Shown: positions 28,684-38,568 of the stretch, one piece after another
How positions within the stretch are numbered: position 1 is the first letter of the stretch
Layout of the letters: the number at the start of each line of letters is the position of its first letter
NCBI GenBank assembly: GCA_012839895.1
Contig: DUML01000014.1
Coordinates: 1-64,000, forward strand
Direction: 5' to 3'
From: Peptococcaceae bacterium
Lineage (GTDB): Bacteria; Bacillota; Desulfitobacteriia; Desulfitobacteriales; Syntrophobotulaceae
Length of the DNA stretch: 64,000 nt
Notes under the pieces: model-generated
Told to the model about the DNA's origin: nothing
Seen by the model: the letters and a program-made list of their open reading frames with translations, nothing else
Databases searched by the model: none
Program-made: the position numbers and the translations under genes

Positions 28684-31407
28684 TTAATCAGTTTGATCAA
28701 GTTTTACCGTATATTTGACCATATCATACCAGTTTGGACCGACTTTAAAATCTACCACTAAGGGGACAGACAGCGGGTAAGCCTTTTCCATACATTCTTT
28801 TACTTTGAAAGCAACAACATCAAGTTCCTCTGGTTTGACCTGAATTAGCAGTTCATCATGAACCTGCAGTAAAATATCGGCCTTATTGTCGGAAAGCTCC
28901 TCAGCGACCTTAATCATGGCAATTTTCATTATATCGGCAGCCGTCCCCTGAATAGGAGTATTTTTAGCTATTCGCTCTCCGAATTGTCTCGTTATCCTAT
29001 TAGGATGGCTGAGCTCCGGTACTCTTCTTAAGCGGTTCAAAAGGGTTCTTACTTCGCCTTTCTCTTTAGCCTGGCTAACAGCTTTCTCCAAATAACGCTG
29101 TACACCGCTATACCTGGCAAAATATTGGTCAATATAAAATTTAGCCTCTTTTCTGGGAATAGCCAAATCCCGGGCTAACCCGAAATCAGTAAGGCCATAC
29201 ATTAAACCAAAATTAACCGCTTTAGCTTTCCGCCGCATATCAGAGGTAACTTCTTCCATAGGTACTCCAAAAACTTCAGAAGCAGTCCGACTGTGCACAT
29301 CTTCCCCAGCCAGAAATGATTCACAAAGAATTGGATCCCGTGAATAATGAGCTAAAATTCTTAATTCGATTTGCGAATAATCAGCTGAAAGGAGCAGCCA
29401 GCCTTCCTTGGTGGGTTTAAACACTTTCCGTAGTTTTCGCCCTTCTTCCAAGCGAATGGGGATATTCTGTAAATTAGGCTCAGTACTGGAGAGCCTGCCA
29501 GTTGCAGTAACAGTCTGTTGAAAACTGGTATGAATCTTCCCTTCTCGTAGCTGGCTAAGCAACCCTTTCACATAAGTGGAATTGAGCTTCATTAATTGAC
29601 GGTATTCCAAGACTTTTTCCACTATGGGATGCTCGGAACGAAGCTCTTCCAGAGTATCGGCGTCTGTAGAGTAACCGGTCTTTGTTTTCTTCATGGGAGG
29701 CAGGCCTAAATTTTCAAAAAGAACCTTCCCCAGTTGTTGAGGAGAATTAATATTAAATACTGAACCTCCCAACCGATATATTTCCTCTTCCAAGCCTTGA
29801 ATCTGAAACTCCAACTCCCGGCCAAACTCGGTCAGCATCTCTTTATCTACGGCAATACCCGTGTTCTCCATTTTAGCCAGAACTTTACTAAGGGGTTGTT
29901 CAATTTCATGCAAGAGTCGGTCAAGGTTTTCTTTGGCTATTTTTTCCGTATACTCTCCGGCGATTTTTCTTAAAAGATAAGCCTCTTGTGCCGGCGAAGG
30001 CGCAAAGAGCTCAGATGTATATTCCCGCAACAATTCAGCCGCACTATAATTTGAGCGGTTGGGATTTAAAAGATATGCCGCCAGGCTCAAATCAAGATCA
30101 ACACCGGATAAAGTTTGGCCTTCATTTAACAATAAAGAATGAAGAGTTTTACTATCGGCAACAATCTTTAGAATGGAATCGTCAGCTAAAATTTCCTGCC
30201 ATCTGGCGACAATTGAGTTAGGCAAGTTGCGACGCGCTAACCGGTAGGTATACTCTTCGTCACAAATACCCATTTCCGTCCACCTGCTTTGATGGACATC
30301 ACTGCCTTCATAACGATAACTTATAACCAGGGTTGGTTTAGTCTCCAGCCAAGAATCCATCTTCGCAAGCCAAGATGCACCGTCTAATTCTTTTTCTTTG
30401 ACAGGAATGGCTGCCACTTCCCCTTGGCCTTCGCCGCTTTTCTCCAGCTCTTTTGGCTCTCCGGCTTGTATCTCTAAAGCTTTTCTTTCGCTCCTTTTTT
30501 GCTGCTCCGACCCCACTGAACCCGTTGTTTCCAGCCTATCCTCAAAACTTTGCAGGAAAAGCCTTGCCACAGTATGCAAATTGTAACGGTGGAAAATTTT
30601 TAAGCAGGCATCCTTATCCGGCTCACACCAAAGAAGGTCATCGATATTAAATTCAAGTGGGACATCATGCATCATGGTAGCTAACTTTTTACTAAGTAAA
30701 GCTTGTTCGCCGTATTCCTCCAGCAATGCTTTTAATTTCTTCCCACTGATTTGGTCTTTATTTTTTAGGACATTTTCCACGGTGCCATATTCATGGAGGA
30801 GCTTTAAAGCTGTCTTTTCACCTACTCCCGGAATCCCGGGAATATTATCCGAAGCATCGCCCATGAGCCCTTTTAAGTCAATGATTTGAGGCGGCTTCAA
30901 ACCGTACTTTTCCAAAAGCCTTGCCTCATCGTAGCACTGAACATCAGTTATGCCTTTGAACGTTAGATAAACTTTGGTTTGAGGCGAAATCAGCTGCAGG
31001 GCATCCCGGTCACCGGTAAAAATACTGACTTCCAAACCTTCTTCCACCGCTTTATCGGCAACTGTGGCTATAATATCGTCAGCCTCATAACCGGCCAGTT
31101 CGAGAGTTGGTACGGACATAACCCCCAATATTTCTTTAAGGTAGCCAAATTGAGGCTTTAAAGTATCTGGGGTTTCTTTTCTTTGAGCTTTATAAGCGGC
31201 AAATTGTTCAGTCCTTATCGTTGGTTTATCTTTATCAAATACAACCACCCAATAATCAGGCTTCTGTTCTTTCTGCAATTTTAAAAGCATAGTCAGAAAA
31301 CCATGCACAGCGTTAGTGGGCAAACCTTCCGCAGAATTAAGCGGCGGTAAAGCGTAGAACGCTCTGAAAACAAGACTATTGCCGTCAAGAATCATGATCC
31401 GAGCCAT
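28684..31407 (-). CDS. polA: DNA polymerase I
   Basis: Repair and Okazaki-fragment polymerase. Order: 5'-3' exonuclease domain (about 1-290; LAGYEADDIIATVADKA, GLMGDASDNIPGIPGVGEKTA), a degenerate 3'-5' exonuclease region lacking clear metal residues (about 320-530, as in other Firmicutes), then the family A polymerase domain with DYSQIELRILAHYS, RRKAKAVNFGLMYG and QVHDELL. ATG at 31407 (MARIMILDGNS) has GAAAGGAG at 8 nt and is preferred over 31425. About 907 residues. Confidence 0.97.
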   Translation of the reverse strand: MARIMILDGNSLVFRAFYALPPLNSAEGLPTNAVHGFLTMLLKLQKEQKPDYWVVVFDKDKPTIRTEQFAAYKAQRKETPDTLKPQFGYLKEILGVMSVPTLELAGYEADDIIATVADKAVEEGLEVSIFTGDRDALQLISPQTKVYLTFKGITDVQCYDEARLLEKYGLKPPQIIDLKGLMGDASDNIPGIPGVGEKTALKLLHEYGTVENVLKNKDQISGKKLKALLEEYGEQALLSKKLATMMHDVPLEFNIDDLLWCEPDKDACLKIFHRYNLHTVARLFLQSFEDRLETTGSVGSEQQKRSERKALEIQAGEPKELEKSGEGQGEVAAIPVKEKELDGASWLAKMDSWLETKPTLVISYRYEGSDVHQSRWTEMGICDEEYTYRLARRNLPNSIVARWQEILADDSILKIVADSKTLHSLLLNEGQTLSGVDLDLSLAAYLLNPNRSNYSAAELLREYTSELFAPSPAQEAYLLRKIAGEYTEKIAKENLDRLLHEIEQPLSKVLAKMENTGIAVDKEMLTEFGRELEFQIQGLEEEIYRLGGSVFNINSPQQLGKVLFENLGLPPMKKTKTGYSTDADTLEELRSEHPIVEKVLEYRQLMKLNSTYVKGLLSQLREGKIHTSFQQTVTATGRLSSTEPNLQNIPIRLEEGRKLRKVFKPTKEGWLLLSADYSQIELRILAHYSRDPILCESFLAGEDVHSRTASEVFGVPMEEVTSDMRRKAKAVNFGLMYGLTDFGLARDLAIPRKEAKFYIDQYFARYSGVQRYLEKAVSQAKEKGEVRTLLNRLRRVPELSHPNRITRQFGERIAKNTPIQGTAADIMKIAMIKVAEELSDNKADILLQVHDELLIQVKPEELDVVAFKVKECMEKAYPLSVPLVVDFKVGPNWYDMVKYTVKLDQTD

Positions 31408-31536
31408 ATAATAGACTCCTTTCAATAAAATCAGACTAAATAAGCTTTTTTTATATCATAACCTTTTATTAAATCAATAACAACCTTATTAGTTTGAAAT
31501 TGCCATCCTTGCCTAAATTGCCATCCTAATTTGAAC

Positions 31537-31580
31537 AAAAAAGAGCTCGAGCCAAACTGTCTCAAGCCCTTGTACTCTTA
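31537..31580 (-). terminator. Terminator after the HesB-like gene
   Basis: On the minus strand GCTTGAG and CTCGAGC (one G-U) form a stem with a 9-nt loop, extended by AAGAG/CTCTT, then six T. It ends the selenoprotein transcript before polA. Confidence 0.65.
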
Positions 31581-31681: not shown

Positions 31682-31978
31682 TTAACAGCGGAAAGGCTTT
31701 GAGTCTTTTATGATAAAGCCACGCTGCGGCATGGAATTGTCATAATCAATTGTTAAATTACCGATATACTCCTTTAAGCCGGAATTGTATATTATCGGAA
31801 CACCATGAGATTCAATTTCTTCGTCATTAGCGCTTTTTTGCTCATCCAGAGCTAACCTAAACTTAGGGCCGCCTCAGCCATAACCTTCATACTCAATCCG
31901 TAGTCTTAAATTGTCAGGATTTTGGCTCTGGGCGATAATATCTTTGATTATATCAGCCGCGACTGGCGTTAATTCCAT
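31682..31978 (-). CDS. HesB/IscA-like selenoprotein, Sec at codon 35
   Basis: A continuous 98-residue frame runs from ATG 31978 to TAA 31682 and is interrupted only by TGA at codon 35 (31876-31874). The sequence around it, LRLRIEYEGYG-U-GGPKFRLALDE, aligns with the first conserved cysteine region of HesB/IscA Fe-S assembly proteins (LRLGV..GCSG..Y.LEF in E. coli IscA), so Sec replaces that Cys. Residues continue in frame through GVPIIYNSGLKEYIGNLTIDYD to a C-terminal Cys (FIIKDSKPFRC). A HesB-related selenoprotein family with exactly this feature is known (TIGRFAM HesB_rel_seleno). A candidate SECIS lies just downstream of the TGA. AGAGGTGAG is about 10 nt before the ATG. Probable role: Fe-S or redox-metal binding; partner unknown. 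A sequencing error or pseudogene is the alternative. Confidence 0.85.
31840..31852 (-). promoter_or_regulatory. Candidate bacterial SECIS hairpin
   Basis: In the mRNA, GCUC-UGGAU-GAGC forms a hairpin whose loop has G at its second position, 26 nt after the UGA, within the range usual for bacterial SECIS elements. A second small hairpin (CCUA-AGUU-UAGG) sits closer, 8 nt after the UGA. Both are within the coding sequence, as expected for SelB recognition. Confidence 0.5.
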
Positions 31979-32194
31979 AAAATATCGCTCACCTCTCTTC
32001 TTTAATTTTAATAATTTTAATATTTTTATTTTATCCAATTCCTAAGACTAAACACATCAAAAGAAAGACAATTTCTTCAAAATAAGCGGCATCTGTTAAC
32101 CTTGGAGGAAAAATTTATAAAAGTTATAATAAAGTTATAATTATGCAATAGAAGAAATTAGGGGATGTAAAAAGATTTTGGGGACGATAGCCAA

Positions 32195-33370
32195 ATGAAT
32201 AAAAGCTCACCAAAACGCCAAATAATCCATGTTGATCTGGATGCCTTCTATGCTTCCATCGAACAACGTGATAACCCTGAGCTAAAGGGGAAACCGGTAA
32301 TTGTTGGCGGCAAACCAGAAAGCAGAGGAGTGGTATCTACTTGCTCCTATGAAGCTCGCCGCTACGGCATAAAATCAGCCATGCCCCTAGCAGAAGCCCG
32401 CCGCCGTTGCCCTCAGGCTGTCTTTTTGCCTGTGGATATCCCCAAATACTCTCAAGTCTCCCGCCAGATTCATAAAATTTTTCAAGATTATACCCCTTTA
32501 ATTGAACCCATCTCACTAGATGAAGCTTTTTTGGATGTTACCGCCTCTTTAAGCCTCTTTGGTTCCGCCGCGGCAATCGCCCGGGAAATTAAGGAACGTA
32601 TAAAAAAAGAGCTGTGTTTAACAGCATCAGTAGGGATTGCTCCTAACAAATTTCTCGCTAAGCTCGCTTCCGACCTTCGAAAACCGGACGGTTTTGTCAT
32701 AGTCCAAGAAGACCAAATCCAAGCTTTTCTTGACCCCTTGCCTATTGAGAGAATCTGGGGAGTCGGACCTAAAACCGCTGAAGAGCTCCATAAACTTGGA
32801 ATAAGGACAATTAAAGAATTAAAAAACCTCGATGAACTGATCCTAAAAAAACATTTAGGCCTTCTCGGCAGTCATCTCTATTATTTAGCCCGTGGAATAG
32901 ATAAGAGGCCGGTAGAGCCGGAACGAGAAGTCAAATCCCTTGGCAGGGAGACCACTTTTCCAGAAGACCTAAAAGACAAGGAAGTTCTGCAGACTTATAT
33001 CCTGGAGTTAGTGACCGATATCGGCCGTAAACTGCGCAAAGGATCACTTAAAGCTAAAACTATAACCTTGAAAGTGCGTTTTGCCGATTTCAGCACCTTG
33101 TCCAAGTCCAAAACATTAGAGCATTACACAGATCTGGACAAGGATATTTACCGCGCAGCATGCAATCTCTTTCAAGAATTGTGCTTAAAACAACCTGTCA
33201 GGCTCATTGGGGTATCCGTCCATAACCTAACTAGCGGCGAAATCCAACAGAGTCTATTTCAAATTGACGACACTGAGCAAAAGAAAAAACTAGCCACTAC
33301 AATAGACAACATCAAAGAACGTTTTGGTGAAGATAGTATAACTTTAGCCCGGCTTTTAAAGAAACCGTAA
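32195..33370 (+). CDS. dinB: DNA polymerase IV (Y family)
   Basis: Translesion polymerase. The palm begins IIHVDLDAFYASIEQRDNPELKGKPVIVGG, with the second catalytic pair in SLDEAFLDVT and the family-typical ASVGIAPNKFLAKLASD. The HhH region (ERIWGVGPKTAEELHKLGI) and little-finger domain follow. 391 residues is normal. The ribosome site is weak (GGGGACGA). It has no obvious operon partners. Confidence 0.96.
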   Translation: MNKSSPKRQIIHVDLDAFYASIEQRDNPELKGKPVIVGGKPESRGVVSTCSYEARRYGIKSAMPLAEARRRCPQAVFLPVDIPKYSQVSRQIHKIFQDYTPLIEPISLDEAFLDVTASLSLFGSAAAIAREIKERIKKELCLTASVGIAPNKFLAKLASDLRKPDGFVIVQEDQIQAFLDPLPIERIWGVGPKTAEELHKLGIRTIKELKNLDELILKKHLGLLGSHLYYLARGIDKRPVEPEREVKSLGRETTFPEDLKDKEVLQTYILELVTDIGRKLRKGSLKAKTITLKVRFADFSTLSKSKTLEHYTDLDKDIYRAACNLFQELCLKQPVRLIGVSVHNLTSGEIQQSLFQIDDTEQKKKLATTIDNIKERFGEDSITLARLLKKP

Positions 33371-36835: not shown

Positions 36836-37393
36836 ATGCCCAATAATCTGCTTATCACAGGTAAAATTAGATCGGGCAAATCAACTCTTTTAAAAGAAAT
36901 GATAGATCCGCTACTTACGGTAACCGGTGGTTATTATGTACAAAGACTATTTATTCAGGGCGAATCCCGGGCATTTAGACTAGTAGACATTAATCGCGAA
37001 AGTTACTTGCCTAACCTAGAGGTACAAAATATCGAAAGCTTTCCCGGTTTAATAGCCGTAATGGGTGAAGAAAAGCATTGTTACTTCGAACCTTTTAGAA
37101 ATATCGGTGTGCTCGCTTTAAAACAGGCTGCAGAGCAAAAACAGCTCATACTTATGGATGAACTTGGGAGATTCGAAACCAAGGTTCCCGAGTTCATGCA
37201 AGCTGTTTTTCAAACGCTAGACAATAACCTCCCGGTGCTAGGGGTAATAAAAAAAGAAACTAACCCTTTCTTAGATCGGATTAGAGCACGTAGCGATGTA
37301 GACGTTATTGACATTGATAAAGTCGGGTTAAGCGTAGCAAGAAAAAAAATCGAGTTATTTTTGAGCACTGTATTCATTCTTCCCCGGCTTTAA
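36836..37393 (+). CDS. Small P-loop NTPase (THEP1-like)
   Basis: A 185-residue soluble P-loop protein: Walker A TGKIRSGKSTLL at the N-terminus, Walker B LILMDELGRFE (about 100-110), and LPVLGVIKKETNPFLDRIRARSDVDVIDID near the end, as in THEP1-type nucleoside triphosphatases. Similar NTPases occur in molybdenum-transport operons, so it may serve cofactor metabolism or metal handling; the function is inferred from context. ATG 36836 has AGAGG 8 nt upstream; a TTG at 36830 is less likely. It follows the binding protein by 41 nt, and its end overlaps the rtcB remnant by 20 nt. Confidence 0.75.
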   Translation: MPNNLLITGKIRSGKSTLLKEMIDPLLTVTGGYYVQRLFIQGESRAFRLVDINRESYLPNLEVQNIESFPGLIAVMGEEKHCYFEPFRNIGVLALKQAAEQKQLILMDELGRFETKVPEFMQAVFQTLDNNLPVLGVIKKETNPFLDRIRARSDVDVIDIDKVGLSVARKKIELFLSTVFILPRL

Positions 37394-38212
37394 AATTATA
37401 AATTGGTGTAAGTTTTTTGACGATCTCTACCGTCGGTTCAATCTGCTTTACAATCTCAGCCATATCTTTGTACGCCATCGGGCACTCATCCAAAGTTTCT
37501 TTATTAACTGATGTGGTATAAACATCTTTCATCTGTTTTTTAAACTCAGAAAGAGTAAAGCTTTGTTTGGCTTTAGCTCTGCTCATCAGCCGCCCCGCAC
37601 CGTGCGGGGCGGAATAGTTCCAGTCCGGATTTCCTTTGCCAAGGCAAATCAAACTCCCGTCCCGCATATTAAGCGGAATTAAGAGCCTTTCCCCTGCTTT
37701 GGCGGATACCGCACCTTTACGCAGGATCATCGTATCGGTATCAATATAATTATGGGTTGTAGTGAAGCGGTCCACCACATCCAGTTTCATCCCGTTGATG
37801 ATTTCTTTCATTATAGCTTTGCGGTTCAGTTCGGCATAGTGCTGGACAATTTTCATATCGTGAAGGTAATCATCAAACAGACTACCGGTGACATAAGCAA
37901 GAGAAAAAGGAATAGTAGTATTGCGTCCTGCCTTATCTTTTTCACTTTTGCCGGTTAGCTGTTTATAGCCCGCTTCCTGATAGTATTTGGCTACTTGGAG
38001 ACCAAGGTGACGGCTGCCGGAATGCACCACAACATATAAATTGCCCTCTTCATCCCGGTTAACTTCAATAAAATGGTTGCCCCCACCCAATGTCCCGATA
38101 CTTTTCTGCGCCCTGTCCAGATTCACTGCTTTTGAACACCGGAGCTGGGTTAAATCAATTTGCTCATTATAGGGATGGAGTTTCTGCCTCACCTCAAAGC
38201 CGGAGGGAATAT
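37374..38212 (-). pseudogene. rtcB: RtcB RNA ligase, 5' part deleted
   Basis: About 275 C-terminal residues of an RtcB 3'-phosphate RNA ligase remain. The homology begins at about IPSGFEVRQKLHPY (38210) and runs through KSIGTLGGGNHFIEV, VHSGSRHLGLQVAKYY and the histidine motif APHGAGRLMSRAKAK to the stop. Roughly the first 130 residues, with the early Mn-binding Cys/His ligands, are absent, and the sequence upstream of 38212 is the phage tape-measure gene in another frame. The GTG at 38192 could initiate the fragment, but the product should be inactive. This is a deletion junction between host and prophage. Confidence 0.85.
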
Positions 38213-38568
38213 TCGTATAGATCAGTTTCTAAAGTGCCTAAATGCTGTTCAGTCCATGCTATTTCTCTTTGTAATGCCCGGTACTGTTCTTCTCCGATTT
38301 TCCCCTGTTTGAATTGCTCCTGAGCTTGTCTTTCGGCCTCTTTCAAAGTATCTAACTTACCTTTAGTGTTTTCTATTGCCTCAGCGAGAATTTTTTGTTT
38401 TTGGGCAAGCAGTTCGGTATTTTTGGGATCTAGTTTTAATAAGCGTTCTACTTGTTTTAGTTCATCTTGTAAGTCTTTAGATTTTTTGTTTACGTCCTCT
38501 AGGGCTTTGTTAAGGGGCTGAGTGTTACCAGCAATCTCTATAGTTATCCCTTTGATTTTTCCAGCCAT
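38194..38568 (-). pseudogene. Tail tape-measure protein, truncated
   Basis: The 124 codons match the N-terminal coiled-coil part of siphophage tape-measure proteins (GKIKGITIEIAGNT, then Lys/Glu-rich heptads with VERLLKLDPKNTELLAQKQ). Full tape measures usually exceed 700 residues. The homology stops near 38220, where rtcB sequence begins, and the last residues (YEYSLRL) come from read-through into it. It sits where expected, right after the G/GT chaperone genes. Confidence 0.85.

Follow-up and report, generated by a model that had tools for sequence, protein, structure and literature searches.

HesB-like proteins are among the 25 bacterial selenoprotein families that were tabulated in 2006 (PMC1794560), and they also appear on a 2026 selenoprotein list, where they are given the motif UxGP and the model TIGR01911 (PMC13188914). 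The HesB-like protein of Methanococcus maripaludis was identified through mutagenesis and 75Se labelling (PMC11097638). A first-pass annotation of the 64,000-nucleotide stretch of DNA analysed here (the window) proposed that an in-frame UGA hides a selenoprotein of this kind, and both lists bear out its remark that the related family is known. It also called selenocysteine (Sec) in this fold chemically unusual. Sec indeed appears to be present, but the family is a long-listed one and this is not an oddity of one genome. The window gene adds a divergent new member to a family of selenoproteins that has been known from the 2000s onwards.

Reading frame and homologues of the hesB-like gene

The coordinates and the codon number given by the first-pass annotation are correct, and the strand, which it left unstated, is minus (Table 1). 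The UGA at codon 35 is the sole interruption of the 98-codon frame, and when it is read as U the protein sequence is MELTPVAADIIKDIIAQSQNPDNLRLRIEYEGYG-U-GGPKFRLALDEQ...FIIKDSKPFRC, with the UxGP motif present as UGGP and codon 35 supplying its U. The ATG is preceded by GAGAGGTGAG, a good ribosome-binding site. The read-through frame matches PF01521 (Fe-S_biosyn) with E 2.8e-12 and 47.3 bits (gathering threshold 26.3) and TIGR00049 with E 5.1e-15; both matches span nearly the whole length and cover both flanks of the UGA, which upholds the earlier view that the sequence on either side is family-like.

Table 1. Coordinates, in the window, of the hesB-like gene, its elements and its neighbours
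Feature	Position	Strand	Remarks
hesB-like selenoprotein gene	31682..31978	minus	ATG 31978-31976, TAA stop 31684-31682; 98 aa with UGA as predicted Sec
In-frame UGA, codon 35	31876-31874	minus	aligned with first ligand Cys of IscA/HesB in UGA and Cys homologues
Apical SECIS hairpin GCUC[UGGAU]GAGC	31840..31852	minus	5-nt loop, 25 nt past the UGA; its second position is G
Ribosome-binding site (AGAGGTGAG region)	31990..31998	minus	about 10 nt 5' of the hesB-like ATG; read from sequence
polA	28684..31425	minus	downstream of the hesB-like gene, same strand
dinB-like (IMS family) polymerase	32195..33370	plus	divergent neighbour of the hesB-like gene
Probable intrinsic terminator	31537..31571	minus	11-bp stem and U tract; fold -15.1 kcal/mol, z -2.68; between the hesB-like gene and polA

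The homologue search covered 60 relatives and the window genome, and homologues were found in 48 of the 60 relatives (49 of 61 genomes when the window genome is counted). In the 70 aligned homologues other than a distant locus, L093 (71 in the alignment), the column of codon 35 holds either a UGA or a Cys codon and never a truncation. Across the phylum the same column is UGA in about 60 distinct homologues and Cys in 24-25 others, in agreement with the claim that the UGA occupies the position of the first cluster-binding Cys. Of 399 genomes sampled across the phylum, 101 contain matches. A single UGA interrupts the frame in many of these matches and no UGA in the others, and the further UGA loci that were inspected residue by residue again have their UGA at this column.

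These observations bear on the simplest alternative, namely that the UGA, which is a literal stop codon in frame, either ends translation in the usual way or stems from a sequencing error, the gene being a pseudogene or encoding a truncated peptide. Against this, dozens of species carry UGA in the same column, with Cys elsewhere, and conservation of the protein continues past the UGA; in the nearest relative (61% identity) it extends to either side of the codon. None of the homologues stops at codon 35, and the concern that re-sequencing might turn the codon into TGC or TGT is excluded in practice, given that dozens of independent genomes share the UGA column.

The window genome has only two PF01521 genes, each with a single UGA and neither a Cys version. 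The second (G000:C94:13862-14182, minus strand) has its UGA at the same column. This second HesB-like gene (L056:3863-4183) has a Cys-rich tail, and a small ORF resembling a CxxC zinc ribbon lies nearby (L056:4250-4492). A more distant PF01521-like frame with a UGA, L093:1950-2249 (G031:C10), has the motif GCUSVAP, a further UGA near the C-terminus and a hairpin that deviates from the family pattern; it is probably a different subgroup and possibly a different Sec subfamily.

Sec machinery and the SECIS hairpin

The genome (2.84 Mb, 98.7% complete) contains selA (574 bits), selB, selD and selC, the last being a 94-nt tRNA-Sec with the anticodon UCA (68.8 bits, threshold 47). The selD gene has a UGA of its own within TSSSG-U-AAKMSP, which is the known Sec site of SelD. 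Since selA, selB, selC and selD are all present, the bacterial Sec pathway is complete in this organism, judging by its gene content, and is accompanied by at least one selenoprotein of textbook type; the possibility of absent Sec machinery, which the first-pass annotation had left to a search for these four genes, is ruled out.

An open frame alone would also result from a genome-wide reading of UGA as another amino acid (e.g., Trp, as in table 4). This reading is opposed by the presence of selA, selB, selC and selD with a UCA tRNA-Sec, by the aligned residues, which are Cys and never Trp, by the SECIS that follows the UGA, and by L025 and several other UGA genes in which the C-terminal Cys is immediately followed by a second UGA that apparently serves as the stop. 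Genome-wide recoding of UGA is in practice already refuted, and its probability is negligible.

The hairpin GCUC-UGGAU-GAGC that was proposed downstream of the UGA is indeed there, but the distance of 26 nt assigned to it only approximates that from the UGA to the loop, which is 25 nt, the stem being reached after 21 nt. Two more base pairs are possible past an A.A mismatch (TTA...AAA, 31855-31837). The 64 kb window contains a single instance of the pattern of a UGA, a spacer and a CUCUGGNGAG-like hairpin, that of the hesB-like gene, against 0.08 occurrences expected from shuffles. The folding energy of the window hairpin is not significant relative to shuffles (z = +0.87), and an Rfam search at the hairpin returned no match; to our knowledge, Rfam has no general bacterial SECIS model. 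The significance of the SECIS therefore comes from the comparison with homologues and not from the folding energy of this particular hairpin.

In 60 distinct UGA genes, CUC[UGGAN]GAG or near variants are found 25-26 nt past the UGA. Pairs 1-4 of the stem are standard in all 60 of these Sec genes, pair 5 in 59 and pair 6 in 56. The type of pair changes from gene to gene: pair 4 is A-T, G-T or G-C, pair 5 is G-C or A-T, and paired alternatives such as UUAACUC/GAGUUAA, CUGACUC/GAGUCAG and GUAGCUC/GAGCUGC occur. Of 24 Cys homologues, 13 keep pair 3 and 17 keep pair 4, and TTA, TTG, CTA and GAA come into use as Leu and Glu codons. The combination of CTG/CTT and GAG codons is present in 57/60 Sec genes versus 8/24 Cys genes (Fisher p = 8e-9, a value that overstates independence because the rows are related, yet the tree has several separate Sec/Cys switches, with at least 4 changes). 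The statistics on pairs and codons and the tree exclude L093, because the motif around its UGA has a different shape. Because the stem is kept in UGA homologues, synonymous sites included, and is lost in Cys homologues, the comparison identifies the hairpin as a SECIS under selection. Some Cys homologues retain the hairpin, as expected after a recent Sec-to-Cys conversion, and a remnant SECIS-like structure was described in the Cys HesB-like gene of Desulfitobacterium hafniense (PMC1794560).

The window gene has a slightly weakened version of this element: its stem has 4 bp followed by A.A and is thereby shortened by one mismatch relative to every other Sec member, and its CAA and its A.A pair are the only ones among the 60 Sec genes. 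Since the stem is shorter and the folding energy is no better than that of shuffles, Sec decoding could be less efficient here. This slight degradation relative to relatives can be counted in favour of a stop codon or a pseudogene, but the conservation of the SECIS at synonymous positions and the full Sec machinery speak against such a reading, which we consider highly improbable. With the SECIS apparently under selection, insertion of Sec at codon 35 is close to certain, and that the window gene is a Sec-decoded HesB-like protein is very probable. In the mechanism that the comparison strongly supports, the UGA is decoded by SelA, SelB, SelC and SelD, directed by the hairpin 25 nt downstream, and Sec35 replaces the first of the cysteine ligands of the family.

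Clade, predicted fold and possible role

The maximum-likelihood tree was built from few columns and many of its forks are open. It places the window protein among 21 rows, each with UGA, that are set apart by a split with support 96/94 and correspond to 18 distinct genes as some rows duplicate one locus; the opposite side of the split contains 51 Sec rows and all 25 Cys rows. By this tree, the window gene belongs to a divergent, apparently Sec-only clade. Its protein scores 47.7 with NF038090 (cut-off 85) and 36.7 with TIGR01911 (cut-off 66.35) and thus falls short of both models. The Sec paralogue of the genome, the clade members and the other Sec homologues scanned also fall below the two cut-offs, which must therefore be narrow. 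The window gene sits in the broad HesB-like family, outside the two curated subfamilies, and, given that both models exclude the scanned Sec homologues, annotations probably often show genes of this kind as truncated or omit them.

An AlphaFold2 model built with a 30-row alignment has a mean pLDDT of 87 and a pTM of 0.73, and its best solved matches are all IscA, SufA or HI1723 (1r94, 1s98, 1x0g and 2d2a; TM 0.70-0.79). Given this confidence and these matches, the predicted IscA-like fold is secure, the C-terminal residues (pLDDT 66) being less certain. The canonical ligands of A-type carriers are C...CGC. The ligands left in the window protein are U35 and the terminal C98, at which the chain ends, and the three-ligand pattern C-x(63-65)-C-G-C is absent. 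The C-termini of relatives are mostly SSC, and most clade members have a single C-terminal Cys and no CGC; L026 has three C-terminal cysteines and L028, a clade member, has none.

We favour the reading that the protein is a selenolate-ligated carrier of an Fe-S cluster or metal. A HesB-like selenoprotein with the A-type carrier fold would fold and dimerise like IscA, Sec35 together with Cys98 would hold an Fe-S cluster or iron in transit, and the selenolate would tune cluster binding or release under strictly anaerobic conditions. The case for Fe-S or iron carriage as such is evenly balanced. The missing third ligand of the canonical set and the lack of a C-terminal Cys in L028 count against it, as does the normal nitrogen fixation of M. 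maripaludis upon disruption of its hesB-like gene (PMC11097638). The protein may instead be a real selenoprotein that is not an Fe-S carrier, in which Sec35 would serve as a redox centre, forming a selenenylsulfide with Cys98, or as a ligand of a soft metal or metalloid on an IscA-like fold. Such a role would suit a protein that has one C-terminal Cys left and no canonical CGC, and whose gene has no adjoining Fe-S assembly genes in the window; moreover, most uncharacterised selenoproteins are inferred in a 2026 review to be redox or metal-ligand proteins (PMC13188914). However, the fold is that of IscA, Sec sits at the cluster-ligand position, and there is no CxxU or UxxC redox motif in the protein; we regard this alternative as a serious one, though somewhat less likely than not. 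Returning to the preferred carrier reading, in its strongest form the 21 UGA rows, usually with one C-terminal Cys and missed by the curated models, would be a Sec-only branch of their own among the A-type carrier-like proteins, and the selenolate would truly ligate an Fe-S cluster or iron that can be transferred. This form is rather unlikely; if it were true, the branch would be a carrier with natural selenium coordination.

The position of the gene between polA and dinB was put forward by the first-pass annotation as part of its novelty. Four relatives from the same family (G008, G011, G009 and G003) have the order hesB-polA-mutM-ABC ATPase on the same strand, and a dinB-like gene lies upstream of the hesB-like gene in several relatives. 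The polA neighbourhood is thus conserved among near relatives, but it gives no functional clue. A functional link to polA or dinB was considered and rejected: the order is confined to near relatives, gaps of 70-363 nt separate the genes in those that share it, a terminator is found here, and more distant members of the clade have other neighbours. The terminator was seen by folding and was missed by the promoter and terminator pattern scan through its loop-length limit. Because of this terminator-like hairpin between the hesB-like gene and polA, we take the hesB-like gene to be transcribed alone. A polA query in the plasmid search gave no match. Elsewhere in the window, the sole RtcB match of the genome (37374-38192, minus strand) lacks roughly the initial quarter of the Pfam profile. 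At its 5' end it adjoins a short phage ORF (38194-38568, minus strand), which is tape-measure-like, has no match in Pfam and comes after phage tail genes. This junction (37374-38568) resembles one left by recombination or deletion on the prophage side, or else a chimeric contig.

Relation to known systems

The window gene adds a clean, probably mis-annotated member to the HesB-like selenoproteins, and the divergent, apparently Sec-only branch to which it belongs falls under current annotation cut-offs. As both PF01521 proteins of this genome appear to be selenoproteins, with no Cys version, the organism would be a clear test case for the part that Sec plays in the IscA-like fold.

With the HesB-like selenoprotein family (TIGR01911 HesB_rel_seleno, NF038090 IscA_HesB_Se), which occurs in Sec-decoding bacteria and methanogens, the window protein shares the fold family, the predicted Sec at the first ligand Cys, the U-x-G-P motif (UGGP here) and a SECIS directly downstream; it differs in scoring below both cut-offs and in its C-terminus, where the Cys-rich tail is replaced by one Cys. 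The second HesB-like selenoprotein gene of the genome has the UGA column and the SECIS position in common with it, but this paralogue lies in the other large clade, which is characterised by Cys-rich tails and by many members with Cys for Sec. Finally, the A-type carriers IscA, SufA and ErpA share with the window protein the predicted fold (by the TM values to solved IscA and SufA) and the position of the first ligand, whereas the window protein scores far below the cut-offs of their models, and would have Sec for the first Cys and one terminal Cys for CGC.
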